From NCBI GenBank assembly GCA_028712155.1, contig JAQTQO010000006.1, positions 1 to 56,162 on the forward strand: a stretch of DNA of 56,162 bases, written 5' to 3'. A program made the position numbers and the translations under genes. The notes under the pieces were generated by a model. That model made no database searches. It was not told where the DNA came from and saw nothing but the letters and a program-made list of their open reading frames with translations. This stretch comes from Patescibacteria group bacterium. GTDB lineage: Bacteria; Patescibacteriota; Patescibacteriia; Buchananbacterales; GWA2-38-13. Below are positions 1 through 34,574 of this stretch, in pieces (the first letter of the stretch is position 1; each line of letters begins with the position of its first letter).

Positions 1-3000
1 CATCTTGGTTGGTCGTGGCTTCGGCCGAAGCGATATTCAAGTCTTGGGTACCGTCATAGCCAGCCGTCGGATAAACCCCATCCTGGAAACTGTAGCTCCG
101 CGCCGCCGGACCGTTCCAGTAGCAGTCCTCGCTATTGGCACTGCAGTTGATATTGAGCGTCCAGGAACCCGCACCGCCCGCGACATACACCGATCCCTGG
201 GCGGGATTTGCCACGGTCGTAGTCTGGGCGGAAAAGCTGTAGGATACCGGGGGGAACGAGAGGATCGATGAAGAGGCCGTCACCGACAGGGCGGCGCCGC
301 TCTCAATCTCAATGGTTTTGTCGTCATACGCATTCGTGGCGTCGTCGTTGTACACTTCCAATTCCAGATTATCGGCGGCGGATACGGCCGTAAAATTTTT
401 GAACGACATCAGGCCGATAGTCCGTGATTCACTGGCGTCAAAGTCGCTGGTCACATCCAGCACCAGGGTCTTATCGCCGTCTTCAAACCAGCACGCGTTG
501 TTGATCTTGCTGTCGCGGGCGTATCGCCCGTACTCATCATCCTCACCGGTAACAAACATATAGTCACCGTTCGGGGAGAAATCCAACCCCTCGGGCTGGA
601 AGAAGCCGCTCACGGAGAATGTCCCCAAAATCGTCCCGGTGCTGGTCGCCTCGATGATAGTTTCTTGTTCCTGCGACAGCAAAAATAAATCGTGCGTGAC
701 CGGGTCATAGGCAATATCTGCCAAGTCGGTATACCCGGCGTTCAGCAGCGCCGTGTTCAAGGTGGTGAGTTCCGTCACCGTACCGTCCATGGTCACCTTG
801 AATACCCGGCCGCCGTTACTGCCGTCGGCTTGCTTCTCGGTTTCGACATAAAACCAGTTATTTTCCACGTCGTAGGTAATACCTTCGATACACGCGTTGC
901 TCACACAAGTAATGGTTGGATCAATGATCGTGCCTTCGCTCAACCCGAGCGTGGTCGTGGATTGGTCGAGCGGGAAGTAAATGATGTCGTAGGGATCGCG
1001 CTCCTCGGTTACCACGAACATATTCCCGTACATCCAATCAATGCTCTCGGTATCGATGAAGCCGTGCATGGTGATGGTTCGCACGTAGCTGCCGCCGAGC
1101 GTGAATTCATAAATCGTGGGCGTACCGTTGATAATCATAAAGAGGGAATCGGTGGTTGAACTATAGGTCACGCCGGAAAGATCCGCGGTGATCGTCGGCA
1201 AATCGTTGGTAAAGTATTCGCTCGTGTATTCCGACAAGGTTGGCGCAATCGTGCAAATGGTGCTGTGTGAGTCCCAGATCATGTTGAAACTCGACGGGAT
1301 TTTGATGCGGATGTCGTCGGCGGCCGTGATGACGCCGGCCGATCCATTGGTGATGGTGATCGCCGAACTGGTGGCCTTGGACTGTCCAACGGTAAACGTC
1401 TGATCGTACGCCGAGGATATGATCGGATTGGACAGGGTGCTGACAATAACTTCAATGTAGTAGGAGTTCACCGTCGACTGGACACTGCCGGAATGCTCCG
1501 CAACGGTGGACTGCGCTGCGACATTCATAATTCCGTTGCTGATGAGATTGGCGATATCCGACGTGTAGGTGACTGTTAACGTTTCTTTCGACCCTGACGT
1601 GCCGCTATCCTTTTGCGTCCAGGTGCCCGATTCTTTCACCCACAGCGACTGACCGTAAGATCCTATCGGATACGTATTGTGTACAAAAATTCCTGCGCTC
1701 AGGAGGTAATTATGGAATTCCTGAATCGTCAGGTCGTACACCAGCCCACACAGGCCGTATCGGTAAATGTTTTTCACCGCGATCGCGGCACCCTGCTCAC
1801 CCACCAAATCATCGCCCACCGCGATGGCCCCGGCATCAACGTAGGAGTCATTCGCCCCATCAACCAGCAACTGATGGTAGGGGGTCACGTGTACGGTATG
1901 GCCATTCGCCAGTTCCAGCACGATAATCTCCCCATCATACGGATGCTGCACGGCCGCGGTCACGTGTCCGGGGTACGTCCGGTTCTGCCGTAAGTAAGTC
2001 ACCAACGGCATTCCCTCGATGTGACGCTGGTAGAGGTCATACAAATGCGCCATGGCGACATTTCCTTCCGAGGTTTGCACGGCGGTGTCGGGGACAAAGG
2101 AAGGCGCTGCCCCGCCGCCGTTGACGCCCTTCCAGGTCACGGTAATTGAGGTGATGTCGCCGACCGGCTGACTAATGGGAAATGTAAAGCGATGATACTC
2201 GTAGTTCGTATCACTGTAGGGAGCCGACGTATCATCCTGCACGTAGCTGCTGTTATCTACCGACACGGCGGTATAATCGGCGGCGGTAAATTCCACCTCG
2301 CCGCCGTCATTGAACGCACCGCTGAGGGCATCGCCTTCCCATGCCTGACCGTCGCAGTCGTCGGCCACGTACGTCGCGGAAAAATCGTCAACTGAGAGAG
2401 CGGGCGTCACGTTGTAGGTGTCCAGCGGGTGTGCCACCCCGTTGCCAGATGTCGTCGCCAGTCGGAAGTAGTAAGTTGCATCGTTGCTGGCTTTCTGGGT
2501 CAGCTGAATAGCGAACTCGATCTCGGTAAACTCCGTACCGGCCAGGGTGATCGAGGTGGTGGTGGCGTTGCCGTCCTTTTGATCGCCGGCGACAAAGGTC
2601 GTGTTGGGATCGCTCACGCCGCTCTCGACGTTGGTGGTCGCGGTCCCATCCGTCAGATTTGTCGAACCCTTGATAATAATGGGGCTGGTGGTGGCGCAGG
2701 CCGTGGAACTAGGCACGGTCATCCAACCGGCGTCCGACTGAGGGTTGGCGCTGGTGCCGTACTGGAGCATGAACGTATTCGACTTGCTGCCGCCGTTATT
2801 GTTATTCACGCTGATGCGCAGGCGTTTGATCCCGCCGAAATTCGTTGTGGTGGCCGTATCTTCATTGGCTCCCCAGGTCGCGTTCACCTCGGACCCGTCA
2901 TCGTTTCTCCAGCGGTAGTGCACCTGCTCGATCGGATTGGGGTTTGTCGAGGTAGCTTCCTGCAACCACTCGACATACCCGTTGTCGGCGGCGTACCATT

Positions 3001-6000
3001 CCGCGCGCAGCCAGACGGATTGCGTCGTGGACGCGGTGCTGGTCGGCACCGCAACCTTGTAGACGCGGATCTCGTCCAGATACCCGAACCATCCGCCGTC
3101 AGTGGTCGCGTCGGTTTTGTAGGCCGTACCGATGCCGAGTTTCATCGTGCCGCCGGTGCTCGCGCCCTGGTTTACCGGATACGTCGTCGTGTTGTTCGCG
3201 AAGCCATCCAAATACAGGTTCGCGATCGCGTGGTCCTTGAGGCGGTAGCCGAAGTGCCGCCAGGCTCCGTTGGCAACGGTTGAGCCGCCGAGGAAAGACC
3301 AGTCGTTGCCGGTAATGTGGCGGTCATCCTCAAAGTTGGCGCCGAGGGTGGCTTGTCCGGAACGGTTATACCCCACGGCAAACTGGATGTCAGCTATCTG
3401 CGTATCCGCTTCACCCATGCCTTTCGAGACAAACGGCTCGATGGTCTGGCTTAATGAAAAAGTTGCCGGGTCGCCGGTCCCGATGCGCTTGAACCAGCCG
3501 GTAATCGTTTGGTTGGTGATGTCAAACCCGGCCGAGTCGGGAACGCCGATGCCGCTACCGGCGGCGCCGCCCATCTTCGGCGAGTAGCCGAATATGCTCT
3601 GGTTCTTCTCACTGCGCGATGCCAGCGTGCTGTTCACTTCGTCATGGTGGAACTGCGTGGAATCTAAGTATACGCCGATGGCCACGTCAGTATTGATGCC
3701 CTCGCCGCCGGCGGTGTTCCAAGTATTGGTACCGTCATACGTGGTCCAAGTGACGCCGTCGCCGGTGGCCGAACCGTTGCCCGACCCTTCAACCCACGCC
3801 TGTTTCATCTCAAGAATGTCAAAGTTGAGGCCCGCCGTGCCCATCGGGTTGGTGGTATAGATCGTCAAATACGCGGCCGTCGCAACGCAGTTTGTGGGAA
3901 TGGAGCTCAGATCAAACTTCATGAACGAGTGCTGGTCGTTGGTGCCGGTACCGGATTCATCCGCGTACAAAGAGGTGGCGACGCCGTAGTTGTTGGTGGG
4001 AGCATTCTGGTCATGGTAGGTGTCCGTTGTCCCGGCATAGCTGGCTTCACCGTCACGAAACTTGTAGGTGGTTCCTCCGCTGCAGTCAACGGTGAACTTG
4101 GGCCGCTGCGCGGTCGTAGCGTTTTCCGACGAGTTCCAGACCTCGCCGTCGGTTTCGGTATTGTCCCACGGGCCGATGTACATGCCTTCATTCGAATTGC
4201 TGCCGTCGATCCACGACTGTATGACGCTGAGGCCGGCCGCATTGAACGTGGTGGTGGCAAAGGCATTGGTGCCGCCGGCTGCCAGCGTCGCCATGGTACC
4301 GGATGCCGACTCCCCGAAGTGCCAGACCGCTTCATAGTAATCATCCCGCCACACGCCGGTCGTCGTCGCCGCCGTGGAGGTGGAAGTATTGTCGTAGTAC
4401 ATCGTGATGTAGTCGCAGTCCGTGGAAGTGGCGATCTTTGGCACCCGCACCCACCAATACGCCTCGTGGGTGGTCGTGCTATCCACGTACTCTTTTTCAT
4501 AGTTCAGCATGGTGCCGTTGTTCTCGTCGATGAACCGCACGTCATCGCCAGAGGAGTCGATATCGTCGAGCACCTGGTTAGTCGCCGTGGCCTTCACGAG
4601 GACAGGAAAGTCAAACAGCGCCTCGTTGAACGTCGAACTGCGGAACTGCAGGATCACGCGGTTGAGCATATCGGGATCCCACCAATTCGCGATGCCGGTT
4701 GGCTGGTTGCACGACTGCACGGAACCGGACGTATTGGTGGCGATCGACACGCCCACGTCATCGTACCAGTTGACGTAAATATTGTAATTGCCGTTTTCCG
4801 GAAAATTCGCATTCGAGCAGGTCACCGTATCGGTTTTGGGGCTCGCGGTGGAATCTATTTTGAAGTTCGTGGTTGCTTTGGTGTAATTCCCGGCCACCCA
4901 GCTGGCTGAACCGGCGCAGTTCGAGGTGATGTATTTTTCCCCGGTGTCCGGATCGCCGTCTTGATTTCGATCCAGGTAGATCACGTAACCGATCGTGGTC
5001 GTTGCGATATCCTCGTCCGTGGTCATGGTCGCGGTGATCGTGATATTCGAAGAGCTCGTGGCGTACACCGACCGCTCGGTGGTCACGCTCGAAATGGACG
5101 CGGTGGCCTTAGCCACCCACAGGTACGGATCATTCGCGGTTCCCGTGTATTTGGAGGTATACCACGTCACCAAATTATTGCCGTTGCTTGTACCCGGCGA
5201 GGTATCGGTCAAATCATGGCCTTCGCGCAGCCCGAGTCGCGTCGACGTTGCCGCGGCAATTTTCGTCCGCCCCGACGCATTGAGTAAAAACGCATTGTAG
5301 GCGTTGTTCGTCAAAAGATTTGACCCCGTGTTGATGTTTTTCGTCTCGCCAATCGATGTGGAAACAGTATTATAGTCCCACGTGGACAATTCATGAGAAG
5401 ACGCCTGGTTCGTGTACACCACGCCAACCGTATAAACATCGCTTAATGACTGGTTCTTATTGTAAACCCACACGTACAGGATGGCCTTGGACAAATACCC
5501 GTCGGAGGTCAGCGCTGAAGTATTTAACGGAATATAGGCACGCTGAATATTCAAGTTCGTCCCAGAATCAGCGACATTGATGCCCATCGTAACGGAGCCC
5601 CCGCCGGAATTGACCGAAGATCCGGGGCTGGCATCATGGGCGGAGGCCCAGGTGCACCCTCCGCCAAGACAGCCGTAGCCCACCGTGCCGTCACCGGACA
5701 TCGCGTAGTAGCTTCCGGTACTGTCGGTGGTAACCGGGTACGTAAGGGCCACACCGTCACCCCGGACAAAAAAAGACCGGGGAATGACTTTGGTCAGCTT
5801 CCCGTCTTTCAGCGCAATCGTGATTGGCTCAATGTGATTATTGCTGTCCCAAATGGACGGCTGGCGGAAAAAAATCTTGCCAAGCGTAGTGTTTCGCCCA
5901 TGAATGACGGTGGTTTGCGGGAGCGACGTGGCAAACTCAATGCGGACGTTGCGGGCGGGCGTTTGCGGCGTGCGGAAAACGACGAGCTTGCGCAGTTCAT

Positions 6001-6589
6001 CGGCTTCCGCCTCCACCACGTAATCAATGCCCGGCCCGAACGCGTCGGCGTACACGACGCGGTTTCTCGCTACTACCCCGGCTTGATGGGCGACGGGCAC
6101 ACCGTCAATCCCCAGCGCAGTGAACGTGACGTTTTCTTCATCAATCGTCACGGTGAGCGTCTCATCGGCAAAAGCCGGCGCCCGGGCGGTATAGCTGGCT
6201 TTATCCATCAAAAAAGTTCCGTCGGATTGCGGGCGAAATTGCGGATCGGCCTCCACCACGTTGCCGCGGTCATCGACGTAGTTGATATCACCGGGGTACA
6301 GGACGAATTCGGTGCCGCCATCCTTCTGCTTGAATACTTTCGCATTCAAGTACCCTTTCTTTTGCGCTTCTTGCCGATCGCGCGCGGTCAATTGCACCGG
6401 CTCAACTCCCGGGTGACTTTCCAGGTATTTTTCCAGTGTCGGCACGGCTCCTCCGAAGCGGAAACGATCGCCGGAAGGATAAAAATTCCTAAAATTTAGG
6501 GCGAGCGACGCGCCGATGACGCCGTATGCGCAAGCCAACAGCCCGAAAAATATCACCGCACTTTTCCGGGTAGACTCAAAACTATGCAT
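1..6589 (-). CDS. Giant multidomain surface protein with embedded intein (3' end outside window)
   Basis: The reading frame is open from an ATG at 6589 to the window edge, 2196 codons, with no stop seen in the stretches I translated. Residues 11-32 form a membrane anchor/signal segment; the rest is Thr/Ser/Asn-rich and predicted extracellular. In order I recognise an unassigned beta-rich N-terminal region (about 50-230), a DUF2341-like domain (about 637-755, with FPVLVKA and WVRVPKI), a DNRLRE/CBM96-like domain (about 840-965, FDLSSIP), a LamG/concanavalin-like domain (about 1020-1180, ending GYLDEIRVYKV), an intein/Hint domain (1497-1638), a SdiA-regulated/YjiK-like propeller (about 1795-2030), and a C-terminal module (from about 2097) resembling the MerR fusion protein at 9077-9910. 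Adhesin-like or glycan-binding function is inferred from the domains. The C-terminal anchor is not visible. No clear Shine-Dalgarno sequence precedes the ATG. Confidence 0.88.
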   Translation of the reverse strand, partial: MHSFESTRKSAVIFFGLLACAYGVIGASLALNFRNFYPSGDRFRFGGAVPTLEKYLESHPGVEPVQLTARDRQEAQKKGYLNAKVFKQKDGGTEFVLYPGDINYVDDRGNVVEADPQFRPQSDGTFLMDKASYTARAPAFADETLTVTIDEENVTFTALGIDGVPVAHQAGVVARNRVVYADAFGPGIDYVVEAEADELRKLVVFRTPQTPARNVRIEFATSLPQTTVIHGRNTTLGKIFFRQPSIWDSNNHIEPITIALKDGKLTKVIPRSFFVRGDGVALTYPVTTDSTGSYYAMSGDGTVGYGCLGGGCTWASAHDASPGSSVNSGGGSVTMGINVADSGTNLNIQRAYIPLNTSALTSDGYLSKAILYVWVYNKNQSLSDVYTVGVVYTNQASSHELSTWDYNTVSTSIGETKNINTGSNLLTNNAYNAFLLNASGRTKIAAATSTRLGLREGHDLTDTSPGTSNGNNLVTWYTSKYTGTANDPYLWVAKATASISSVTTERSVYATSSSNITITATMTTDEDIATTTIGYVIYLDRNQDGDPDTGEKYITSNCAGSASWVAGNYTKATTNFKIDSTASPKTDTVTCSNANFPENGNYNIYVNWYDDVGVSIATNTSGSVQSCNQPTGIANWWDPDMLNRVILQFRSSTFNEALFDFPVLVKATATNQVLDDIDSSGDDVRFIDENNGTMLNYEKEYVDSTTTHEAYWWVRVPKIATSTDCDYITMYYDNTSTSTAATTTGVWRDDYYEAVWHFGESASGTMATLAAGGTNAFATTTFNAAGLSVIQSWIDGSNSNEGMYIGPWDNTETDGEVWNSSENATTAQRPKFTVDCSGGTTYKFRDGEASYAGTTDTYHDQNAPTNNYGVATSLYADESGTGTNDQHSFMKFDLSSIPTNCVATAAYLTIYTTNPMGTAGLNFDILEMKQAWVEGSGNGSATGDGVTWTTYDGTNTWNTAGGEGINTDVAIGVYLDSTQFHHDEVNSTLASRSEKNQSIFGYSPKMGGAAGSGIGVPDSAGFDITNQTITGWFKRIGTGDPATFSLSQTIEPFVSKGMGEADTQIADIQFAVGYNRSGQATLGANFEDDRHITGNDWSFLGGSTVANGAWRHFGYRLKDHAIANLYLDGFANNTTTYPVNQGASTGGTMKLGIGTAYKTDATTDGGWFGYLDEIRVYKVAVPTSTASTTQSVWLRAEWYAADNGYVEWLQEATSTNPNPIEQVHYRWRNDDGSEVNATWGANEDTATTTNFGGIKRLRISVNNNNGGSKSNTFMLQYGTSANPQSDAGWMTVPSSTACATTSPIIIKGSTNLTDGTATTNVESGVSDPNTTFVAGDQKDGNATTTSITLAGTEFTEIEFAIQLTQKASNDATYYFRLATTSGNGVAHPLDTYNVTPALSVDDFSATYVADDCDGQAWEGDALSGAFNDGGEVEFTAADYTAVSVDNSSYVQDDTSAPYSDTNYEYHRFTFPISQPVGDITSITVTWKGVNGGGAAPSFVPDTAVQTSEGNVAMAHLYDLYQRHIEGMPLVTYLRQNRTYPGHVTAAVQHPYDGEIIVLELANGHTVHVTPYHQLLVDGANDSYVDAGAIAVGDDLVGEQGAAIAVKNIYRYGLCGLVYDLTIQEFHNYLLSAGIFVHNTYPIGSYGQSLWVKESGTWTQKDSGTSGSKETLTVTYTSDIANLISNGIMNVAAQSTVAEHSGSVQSTVNSYYIEVIVSTLSNPIISSAYDQTFTVGQSKATSSAITITNGSAGVITAADDIRIKIPSSFNMIWDSHSTICTIAPTLSEYTSEYFTNDLPTITADLSGVTYSSTTDSLFMIINGTPTIYEFTLGGSYVRTITMHGFIDTESIDWMYGNMFVVTEERDPYDIIYFPLDQSTTTLGLSEGTIIDPTITCVSNACIEGITYDVENNWFYVETEKQADGSNGGRVFKVTMDGTVTELTTLNTALLNAGYTDLADIAYDPVTHDLFLLSQEQETIIEATSTGTILGTFSVSGFFQPEGLDFSPNGDYMFVTGEDDEYGRYARDSKINNACWFEDGDKTLVLDVTSDFDASESRTIGLMSFKNFTAVSAADNLELEVYNDDATNAYDDKTIEIESGAALSVTASSSILSFPPVSYSFSAQTTTVANPAQGSVYVAGGAGSWTLNINCSANSEDCYWNGPAARSYSFQDGVYPTAGYDGTQDLNIASAEATTNQD
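1676..2101 (-). other. Mini-intein / bacterial intein-like (Hint) domain inside the giant protein
   Basis: This is residues 1497-1638 of the giant protein, 142 residues, the size of a mini-intein without homing endonuclease. The N-terminal block begins SFVPDTAV, with Ser where most Hint domains have Cys. Block B is HTVHVTPYHQL, with the conserved T-x-x-H. The C-terminal blocks read VYDLTIQEFHNYLL and then GIFVHN, followed by Thr as the +1 residue. The penultimate His, terminal Asn and a hydroxyl +1 nucleophile are all present, so full protein splicing is plausible. The flanks read SITVTWKGVNGGGAAP before and TYPIGSYGQSLWV after, and joined they look like one beta-sandwich domain. It may instead be a type-A bacterial intein-like domain that cleaves or splices inefficiently. 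Confidence 0.87.
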
Positions 6590-31093: not shown

Positions 31094-34000
31094 TTATGCC
31101 GGCCGTCGCCGGAGAAGATAGTACAACCCGAGGAAAAGCAGAATCCCGACGGACACCACCAGCGCGGTTAACGGCAGGTACGAACGCGCGGCGCTGACCG
31201 TCGGCGACGGCAGCGGTTGGCGCGCGAAGAGCTCCCGCGGAGAAGCGGCGCGGGCGGACCGCACAAAAAATTCCAGCGGCGTGCTGCGCGCAACGGCTTT
31301 GCCCGTGCCGTCGTTCACCGTGACGTAGACGGCGTGGGGGCCGTCCACGAGCGGCTGCCGCAGTGTATAGGTCCAGTTGCCATCCGCATTCACCTGCGTC
31401 GTCACCACCAGCGGCAGGTCACTGTAGATAAACAGGGCAACGACCTCGCCGGGCATACCCCGGCCCGAGATCTGCAGGCCCGCGCCGCCGGATGACGCAG
31501 CGGCCGTCGCGTCGCGCACGCGTTCGACCACAAAGTCGTCATCAATATCCGGCAGAGCGAGCGGCTGCTCCAACGGCCGGCCGGCCGCCAGCGCCAGCTC
31601 CACCGGCGCCGGGGTAACGGCCGGCGCACCGGTGCCGAGCGGGTTGAAGCCGCTGAGCACCTCAGCCCCGTCGGCGTAACCGTCATGGTCGGTGTCGGCG
31701 AGCTTTGGGTCGGTCCCAAGCCGCCGCTCAACATCATCCGGCAGTCCGTCCTGGTCGGCGTCCAAGACCAGCACTGCCGGTGCGGCCGCGCGCACGGTAT
31801 CACTATCATCCACCACCACGACGCCCGAGGACGGCACCAGCCGTACGGCCAACGGGCTTTTAATGAGCACCGGCACCGCTTGCTCAATAGTCCGAACCGT
31901 CGTGGTAGACACCTGGCGTTCCGGCATTAACGTTATCGGCGCATTGAGGCTGGGCGCCACGATCGTCTGGAGCCGGTCAATGTTTTTTTGCGTATACAAA
32001 ATGGTCGGGAAATGCCGCACTATGGCGTCTGCACACGCCGCCGCATCCACGCAGGAAACCCGGCCTTGAAACTGCGTGATCAGCGCGGTCGTACAGGCGG
32101 CTTCTTCCGGAATACCCAGCCGGGCGCACTCCGGTTTTACGTATTGCTGCCGCAACAACTCCGTGCATGCCGCCGAGGTCTTGGTTTTGGCCTGACGGCA
32201 CGGCCACGGTTGATCCAACGCCGCCAAGTACTCCTGGCAAGCGACCGGGTCAACCAGCTGCTGTACCAAACACGCATCCGGTACGGATTTTATCTGCAGC
32301 AACCGTTGGCACGCCGCTCCCGCAACATTCGCAACGACGCACGGCTGCGGCACGGTCCGCGGTAGCTCGCCAAAACTCTGCTCAAAAAGGTACTGTTGAC
32401 ATGCCGCGAGGGTGGTGCGCTGCGCGGATTGACATTCCGCCGGAAGCTGTCGAACCGCCTGGACTTGCAAAGTAGCCAGCAGTTGCTGACAATCGGCTTC
32501 GGTGCGAAGGCTGCGGGCAATACACCGTTCATCCAGTGATGGCTGTGGCGTCACAGACGCTAGGGAAGGCACGTCTTCCGGGTTCACCGGTTGCGACAAT
32601 GACGGCGAAACGGTCGGCATCGGCGTCGGAAGAATTTTCGGCGGCACGACATTTGATCCGCTCGACCCGGCGAGCGGCGCATACACTTCAATGGTCACCG
32701 TATCCACGGCCACCCGCGCACCATCGCTTGCCTGCAGCCGCAGCACGTAGGAACCGGATTGCGAGAATTTCACTTCGGTGTCCAGCGCCGTCGCGTTGGC
32801 AAAGGTCGCGATTCCCGGTCCTTGCGCCAATACCCAAAAGATCTTCAACGTACCCGGCGGTTTAGGCAAGCCGTCGTCGCCGGCTTTTCCGGAAAGCCGC
32901 ACGGTGTTTGTCGTAACCGTTTGATTCGCCCCGGCTTCGACGGTTGGCGGCTGATTCCCGGTGGCCGGAGTCGGCTGGACTGCCGGCACCAGCGGTGGCG
33001 GTACGCCCAGGGAGTCTGCTGCCGCCACCGTTACCGGCTGCGGCGGGCTGATTGTTTCCGCCCCGTTCGCGGTTGCCACCGCACGCAGCTCATACGCTCC
33101 GGCCGGCAGCGTACGGGTATCCCACAGGCCCGTCCAGGTTGCCCCGTCAAACGTCGCCGGAACAACGCCGGCAAGTGCTCCGCCATAAATAAAGCGCAAT
33201 TTTTCCACGGGTGGATCAACCTTTGCCACCACCTTTGCTTCGCCGCGCACCTCCCCCGCCACCGGTTGCAAAAAGGTAAATATCACGGACTTCGACCCGG
33301 CGGTATTTTGAGGGAGAACAACATCCGTGGTCGGCCGGGACAACGCGAGATACAGATCGACGGTGGCATGCCGGCCGTCCGTATCTTCTGCCTCGGCCGT
33401 AACTACGTAACTGCCGTTTACATACTCCGCCGTATCCCAATAAAATTGGAACGCTTCGATCTCGGGCACCGCAATGGCCGGAAACACCCGGATAGAATCC
33501 CCGCTTTTGACCCGAAAGGTAACCTGGCGAACCCGCGGGAACGGCACGTTGACTTGCGCGAACAGGTACACCGGTGCACCCACGGGACTGACCGGAGGTT
33601 TTCGAAAACTCACGACCAGCGGGGTGACGACGGTGGTGGCGGTATCAAGGATAGTCAGCGCAACGGTATTGATGCACTTGACGATCTCGTTTTGCACCGT
33701 TTTACCCGCCGCACTCAACACGTACGTACCGGCAGGCAGCACCGGGTATTGGAACGGAAATTCCCAGTGCAGGCCCGCGCCATCGGAGGATTTGGCCGTG
33801 AACGTCGCGTCCGGTTGCGTCGTCGTCTCCGGATCATCGAGAAAAAACCATACGGTTGCCAACGGCCCGGATCCTTCGGCGGAAAAATTTACCAGCGTCT
33901 TCCGTTCCGCCTGCATGCTTTCGCTGGGCGACGTCAGGTGGAGCGTCGCCGGCGGATTCACCGTGAGGCTCGAAGTTTCGGGAGACGGATCTTGAACCGG

Positions 34001-34480
34001 ACCGCCGGCACCACCGCCGGTCCCCGCCGAACTTGGCGCCGCCGTACCCCGGCTGATGGTCACGTAGGCGTCAGTCTGCCCCACCCGCCCATCGCTGGTA
34101 TACGCCCGGGCGGTAATTTGGTAAGCGCCGTCGGCAAAACCCGTAATGTTCCAGTACAATTTGTATAACGAGAGCTCGGTCGCAAAGTCTGCCGGATATT
34201 CCCATGACTGGGCACTGCCGTGAATAAAAAATCTGACTTCTTTAACGGCCGTCGTGTCGGCATTCACGCTGACAAACAGGTAGGTGCTTGCCGACAACGG
34301 GCTGCTGGGCGGCTTGACAAAGACCACTTGCGGCGCCGTCGGAGAAAAATTCGTTCCCTGCGCCCGCACCGTCGGAATAAATGCGGTAAAGAAAAAAATC
34401 CAGACGGTCAACCAAAAAATGACCGTCCGGAGTTTACCTTCGGCTGCAATACGGGTGCATCGTCGGAACAAATTTTCCAT
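31094..34480 (-). CDS. Large surface protein: Ig-like, PKD-like, Cys-repeat, TSP3, C-terminal anchor
   Basis: This 1128-residue protein starts at ATG 34480 (MENLFRRC). A signal peptide ends near VRAQG (about residue 42). Three to four Ig-like domains follow (about 50-480, each opening with FVKPP/SFRKPP/TFLQP-like strands), then a PKD/K319-like domain (about 495-595). Residues about 645-825 are seven tandem C-x(about 10)-C units with the second Cys usually followed by QxL or TxL. TSP3 repeats (about 905-950, DADQDGLPDDVE), a bacterial Ig-like domain (about 985-1085) and a C-terminal LPLTALVVSVG-membrane-RRR tail complete it. The tail looks like a sortase-type or simple membrane anchor. Upstream in-frame starts add no signal-peptide logic. 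It leads a run with the histidine kinase. Confidence 0.87.
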   Translation of the reverse strand: MENLFRRCTRIAAEGKLRTVIFWLTVWIFFFTAFIPTVRAQGTNFSPTAPQVVFVKPPSSPLSASTYLFVSVNADTTAVKEVRFFIHGSAQSWEYPADFATELSLYKLYWNITGFADGAYQITARAYTSDGRVGQTDAYVTISRGTAAPSSAGTGGGAGGPVQDPSPETSSLTVNPPATLHLTSPSESMQAERKTLVNFSAEGSGPLATVWFFLDDPETTTQPDATFTAKSSDGAGLHWEFPFQYPVLPAGTYVLSAAGKTVQNEIVKCINTVALTILDTATTVVTPLVVSFRKPPVSPVGAPVYLFAQVNVPFPRVRQVTFRVKSGDSIRVFPAIAVPEIEAFQFYWDTAEYVNGSYVVTAEAEDTDGRHATVDLYLALSRPTTDVVLPQNTAGSKSVIFTFLQPVAGEVRGEAKVVAKVDPPVEKLRFIYGGALAGVVPATFDGATWTGLWDTRTLPAGAYELRAVATANGAETISPPQPVTVAAADSLGVPPPLVPAVQPTPATGNQPPTVEAGANQTVTTNTVRLSGKAGDDGLPKPPGTLKIFWVLAQGPGIATFANATALDTEVKFSQSGSYVLRLQASDGARVAVDTVTIEVYAPLAGSSGSNVVPPKILPTPMPTVSPSLSQPVNPEDVPSLASVTPQPSLDERCIARSLRTEADCQQLLATLQVQAVRQLPAECQSAQRTTLAACQQYLFEQSFGELPRTVPQPCVVANVAGAACQRLLQIKSVPDACLVQQLVDPVACQEYLAALDQPWPCRQAKTKTSAACTELLRQQYVKPECARLGIPEEAACTTALITQFQGRVSCVDAAACADAIVRHFPTILYTQKNIDRLQTIVAPSLNAPITLMPERQVSTTTVRTIEQAVPVLIKSPLAVRLVPSSGVVVVDDSDTVRAAAPAVLVLDADQDGLPDDVERRLGTDPKLADTDHDGYADGAEVLSGFNPLGTGAPAVTPAPVELALAAGRPLEQPLALPDIDDDFVVERVRDATAAASSGGAGLQISGRGMPGEVVALFIYSDLPLVVTTQVNADGNWTYTLRQPLVDGPHAVYVTVNDGTGKAVARSTPLEFFVRSARAASPRELFARQPLPSPTVSAARSYLPLTALVVSVGILLFLGLYYLLRRRPA

Positions 34481-34510
34481 TTTTACTCGGTTGGTTTTTG
34501 CCTCCCGTTC

Positions 34511-34540
34511 TTGACGGAATGATGATACTATAGCACAATA
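34511..34540 (+). promoter_or_regulatory. Candidate ychF promoter
   Basis: TTGACG (34511-34516) and ACAATA (34535-34540) are 18 bp apart, about 35 bp before the ychF ATG. The match is moderate. Confidence 0.4.
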
Positions 34541-34574
34541 CACATCACGCGTAAATCATTTCCTCGCCCCGTGT

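Follow-up and report, generated by a model that had tools for sequence, protein, structure and literature searches.

Inteins reside mostly in conserved replication and metabolic enzymes. Here we ask what a small Hint domain with intein-type residues does inside a giant, putatively exported protein of a Patescibacteria group bacterium, and whether it splices, cleaves or does neither. The window, meaning the whole stretch of DNA analysed, is 56,162 bases long and corresponds to one entire contig of a 1.44-Mb genome.

Host protein and its Hint-domain insert

The host open reading frame (ORF; positions 2..6589, minus strand) encompasses the N-extein, the insert and the C-extein. It comprises at least 2,196 codons from its ATG, stays open and runs off the contig end. 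Profile scans against NCBIfam and Pfam identified DUF2341, DNRLRE and SdiA-regulated domains, the last of these in the C-extein (residues 1785–1994; 608..1237, minus; Pfam 119 bits). A hydrophobic N-terminal segment, read by eye from the translation (residues 1–33; 6491..6589, minus), is a candidate export signal or membrane anchor. We infer that the host is a giant exported-type protein with surface-type domains. Next to it lies a gene for a LysM/LytR_C envelope protein. Elsewhere in the window, positions 31094–34543 (minus) encode a further large protein of surface type, with 1,149 amino acids and Ig-like, PKD-like and TSP3 domains or repeats. By eye, a LamG-like stretch of the host (AVWHFGE ... 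VPDSAGFDITNQTITGWFKR; residues ~750–1030; window ~3500–4350, minus) is apparently broken by the DNRLRE domain (residues 855–986), and the host protein may thus hold a second domain-in-domain insertion.

The insert spans 142 residues (1497–1638; 1676..2101, minus) and is fully in frame. It reads SFVPDTAV...TPYH...VYDLTIQEFHNYLLSAGIFVHN, followed by Thr, and its N-terminal junction is AAP-SFVP. The class-1 positions are all filled, namely Ser1 (2099..2101, minus), block B TPYH (insert residues 73–76; 1874..1885, minus), block F VYDLTIQEFH (residues 121–130; 1712..1741, minus) with an intein-type Asp123 and with His130, and block G His141-Asn142 together with Thr+1 (1673..1681, minus). The first-pass annotation had described such an insert with Ser1, TPYH and Thr+1, and both the translation and the intein profiles bear this out. 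The profile search that it called for gave scores above the cut-offs for NCBIfam intein_Nterm (35.4 bits; curated cut-off 24.5) and intein_Cterm (21.0 bits; curated cut-off 15.6), and for Pfam Intein_splicing (50.3 bits; cut-off 35.8) and PT-HINT (31.9 bits; cut-off 27.7), the PT-HINT score being lower than that for Intein_splicing. The Pfam Hint and Vint models yielded no match to the insert alone at E ≤ 1; among 11 scanned domains, seven match Hint and nine match Vint. The insert is the sole Intein_splicing match in the source genome.

An AlphaFold2 (AF2) model of the insert, built from 11 aligned Hint domains, had a mean pLDDT of 87.5. The top 50 Foldseek matches to this model are all inteins and bacterial intein-like (BIL) domains. 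The best match is the BIL domain 2lwy (E = 1.3e-8, TM 0.83–0.85); the Mtu RecA mini-intein aligns with a TM of 0.87 and an rmsd of 1.7, and further matches include Npu DnaE, BIL2 and the cysteine-less Aes123 PolB1. By sequence and predicted structure, the insert is a Hint domain that has the intein fold and the splicing motifs of both termini. Owing to its length of 142 residues, it has no space for a homing endonuclease.

The insert interrupts a single domain

Joining the two flanks and searching with them revealed a junction-spanning match in another genome (G374; E = 0.001, ORF of 2,092 amino acids), and a two-sequence profile then found a match in a third (G259; E = 1.6e-9, ORF of 1,949 amino acids). 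In both homologues the domain is uninterrupted, reading ...LTINWRGYGEAQAGYDVGLYLWNNNGSSWEEL... and ...FTVNWQGHGAVPDGKQVSISIWNFLSSAWEHL..., respectively. Most of the weak matches of this search looked like chance, and only these two (L018 and L035) were kept. We built a profile from the two homologues, leaving out the window flanks. The joined flanks scored 21.4 bits against this homologue-only profile, whereas the best of 1,000 shuffles reached 9.6. The N-terminal half (residues 1433–1496; 2102..2293, minus), whose last residue is Pro(−1), matches model positions 16–64, and the C-terminal half (residues 1639–1697; 1499..1675, minus), whose first residue is Thr+1, matches positions 74–124. As the two flanks match successive parts of the profile, they belong to a single domain, and the insert occupies a loop within it.

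This agrees with the earlier proposal that the flanks are halves of one domain. The empty site that it had sought was found in the form of the uninterrupted homologues; at 22–25% identity the insertion point is resolved to a loop (model positions 64 to 74) rather than to an exact residue. The flanking domain has few homologues, conserved at that same level of identity, and its beta-rich character was read from the sequence. In an AF2 model of the insert with its flanks, the flanks were mostly below a pLDDT of 50 and hence uninformative on the flanking domain. Two MAFFT alignments in which flanks were mixed with Hint domains (A4 and A5) misplaced the homologues and were discarded.

An intein residue set in a BIL-like location

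We compared the window domain with 65 further Hint domains. A survey of 381 genomes of the same class, 53 of which had a match, supplied nearly all of them, and a small number were added from the phylum at large. In 23 cases the domain is an intein of a replication-type protein (GyrB, GyrA, UvrD-like and others), the host being assigned by eye from flanking sequence; the other 42 are Hint domains of surface proteins or alpha-2-macroglobulins. Position 4 of block F is Asp in 21 of the 23 inteins (one has Cys and one was not read) and Asn in all 42 surface or alpha-2-macroglobulin domains. The +1 residue is Ser or Cys in every intein, and Cys, Ser or Thr in none of the 42. Their residues indicate that these 42 domains are of a cleaving, BIL-like type.

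The window domain has Asp123 and Thr+1. No other domain of the set has Thr at +1, and no other surface-type Hint domain has a +1 nucleophile. It combines an intein residue set (Ser1, Asp123, His-Asn and Thr+1) with a BIL-like location. With Cys, Ser and Thr accounting for 22.6% of extein residues, a Thr at +1 may be there by chance and is weak evidence on its own; the block-F Asp is the better indication of an intein. In a tree, the window domain fell with the inteins, but the support was weak (74/92) and its branch very long (2.39). A-type BIL domains lie in variable regions of non-conserved, often exported proteins, often lack a +1 nucleophile and would be expected to group with BIL-like domains. 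The insert lies in such a region; it has a +1 nucleophile, and the weakly supported tree places it nearer the inteins.

Ser1/Thr+1 is an established class-1 splicing pair for which an additional His, in motif NX, is critical; in Ser1/Ser+1(Thr+1) inteins this His comes after Arg or Lys (PMC10189870). His53 (1943..1945, minus) is a candidate for this residue. It aligns without gaps to a His of PI-PkoII at equal distance from block B, which we take to be the NX His of that intein. His53 is preceded by Gln, not by Arg or Lys, and a His occupies this position in 34 BIL-like domains out of 42 as well, almost all of which have Cys1. Pro at −1 reportedly lowered N-terminal cleavage ~1,000-fold in another intein (PMC8891592). 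This residue is present in the window domain, in none of the 23 inteins and in two of the 42 BIL-like domains. Pro(−1) is the strongest point against efficient splicing, and the reaction may be slow or incomplete.

Splicing, cleavage or a relic

We lean, with restrained confidence, towards a class-1 Ser1/Thr+1 (oxyester) mini-intein that removes itself and rejoins the surface domain. The steps of this mechanism are all deduced from the residues present. Ser1 would attack the carbonyl of Pro(−1) in an N–O acyl shift, assisted by Thr73 and His76 (block B) and Asp123 (block F), and probably also by His53. The N-extein would then pass to Thr+1, and Asn142 would cyclise with the aid of His141 and His130, thereby freeing the insert. 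Finally, an O–N shift would yield an ordinary peptide bond (...VNGGGAAP-TYPIGSYG...) and a domain as found uninterrupted elsewhere; the spliced protein would carry GGGAAPTYPIGSYG across the extein joint.

The main competitor, which we consider less probable but worth serious weight, is that the insert is in effect an A-type BIL domain. Cyclisation of Asn142 would cut the protein at its C-terminal junction, whether or not the N-terminal one is hydrolysed, and leave two mature pieces without ligation. The setting of the insert, a variable loop in an exported-type protein that is not conserved, is the one in which reviews place BIL domains (PMC5874633, PMC7765530), the top Foldseek match is the BIL domain 2lwy, and Pro(−1), which disfavours the first splicing step (PMC8891592), does occur in two of the 42 BIL-like domains. 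Against such cleavage stand the block-F Asp and Thr+1, each absent from all 42 of these domains; a cut at the insert would also break a single folded domain into two parts. The same Pro(−1), together with the long branch (2.39), the occurrence in a single genome and a loop site that could tolerate a small domain, would also fit a relic that neither splices nor cleaves and is kept as a folded insertion. We judge this unlikely; intact catalytic positions and an open frame are unexpected for a neutral relic.

The first-pass annotation had suggested that the protein either splices or forms an ester or cross-link, possibly to mature or fasten a surface fibre. The comparison with the 65 Hint domains favours the splicing part of this suggestion; a lasting ester or cross-link has no sequence support, and with Asn142 and Thr+1 both in place the ester intermediate is predicted to resolve to a peptide bond. 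Nothing in the sequence points to fibre fastening. A related scheme, in which the Ser1 ester is handed to an outside nucleophile as in Hedgehog proteins and the N-terminal part becomes attached to another molecule or surface, is conceivable from Hint chemistry in an exported-type protein, with no tool result behind it. It seems very improbable, given that no extension resembles a sterol-recognition region, that Asn142 and Thr+1 are intact although unnecessary for such capture, and that the insert alone lacks the Hint or Vint matches of seven and nine of the 11 scanned domains.

Returning to the splicing mini-intein, a bolder version would have the giant exported protein splice itself through oxyester chemistry at Ser and Thr, perhaps no earlier than export itself and slowed by Pro(−1). 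In that case the intein would control the maturation of a surface domain like a switch, instead of parasitising a replication enzyme. We regard this extension as speculative and improbable. The insert offers a case in which to learn whether surface proteins can mature by splicing.

Distribution and other Hint domains

The insert is so far known from a single genome. Searches among relatives and in viral contigs turned up no orthologue of the 142-residue domain, and none was confirmed in GTDB contigs by peptide patterns; the host protein was likewise not found in GTDB contigs. Searches of phages and plasmids with tblastn returned only weak Hint matches below 40% identity (phage terminase, ribonucleotide reductase (RNR) and head proteins, and Streptomyces polymorphic-toxin Hint domains). 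A foreign base composition was considered and rejected; GC and GC3 of the insert match those of the host gene, giving no sign of recent transfer.

The survey also brought up other Hint domains. Across the phylum, alpha-2-macroglobulin (A2M)-like proteins carry a Cys1 Hint domain that ends in HN followed by D, E, Q, A or N (L003, L005, L006, L008, L009, L011, L012, L014, L015, L044–L050 and others). The A2M label, given by flank pattern, covers 29 domains. In the two that were scanned with Pfam (L003 and L005), the Hint domain lies between a bait-region domain and an A2M domain. This arrangement suggests a self-cleaving alpha-2-macroglobulin, and our literature search found no report of this. 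One locus (L082; G169:C12:13000-22500) encodes three proteins within 9.5 kb, each with a terminal Hint domain and only 9–11 residues after it; two have Cys1 and one has Ser1, and an A2M-type Hint domain is also present in this genome. In another intein (L104; G031:C20:3000-5612), with Cys1 and Cys+1, block-F position 4 is occupied by Cys and not by Asp (VYCL...HN|C), which is a class-3 feature.

Comparison with known systems

A Hint domain that has every residue of the intein set and divides a single domain of an exported-type protein is a compact, testable case between an intein and a cleaving surface Hint domain. We found no precedent for inteins in CPR bacteria or in adhesins at the level of titles and abstracts, in a search with most subscription journals outside its coverage. 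Cysteine-independent inteins are sought as they are functional under oxidising conditions (PMC10189870).

Among known systems, the insert resembles PT-HINT domains of polymorphic toxins in passing the Pfam PT-HINT cut-off. It differs in that no toxin domain was seen within the contig, with the protein end lying beyond it, and in that at least 558 host residues with the SdiA-regulated domain follow. With the GyrA and GyrB inteins of the same class (L078, L087, L090 and others) it shares the VYDL...HN block F and the NxxLxxGxFVHN ending. These inteins, however, are Cys1/Ser+1, lie in conserved enzymes, mostly have long inserts between their splicing halves and show at most 31% identity to the insert (alignment A2). 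A-type BIL domains such as that of Clostridium thermocellum (2lwy) share its fold, size, His-Asn end and location, a variable part of a protein that is not conserved; the insert has a +1 nucleophile, whereas the BIL-like domains compared have a block-F Asn and no such residue.

Also among the closest systems are the class-1 Ser1/Ser+1 or Ser1/Thr+1 inteins (PI-PkoII/PI-TkoII, Psp Pol-1, Mvu-M7 Pol-3 and PolB16 OarG; PMC10189870), with which the insert has Ser1, TxxH, the block-F Asp and His-Asn in common. Thr+1 is shared with the Ser1/Thr+1 members, and the candidate NX His lies at the PI-PkoII spacing. The named Ser1 inteins reside in DNA polymerases (PMC10189870), whereas the insert of the window lies in an exported-type protein, with Pro(−1) at its N-terminal junction and Gln in place of Arg or Lys before the candidate NX His.
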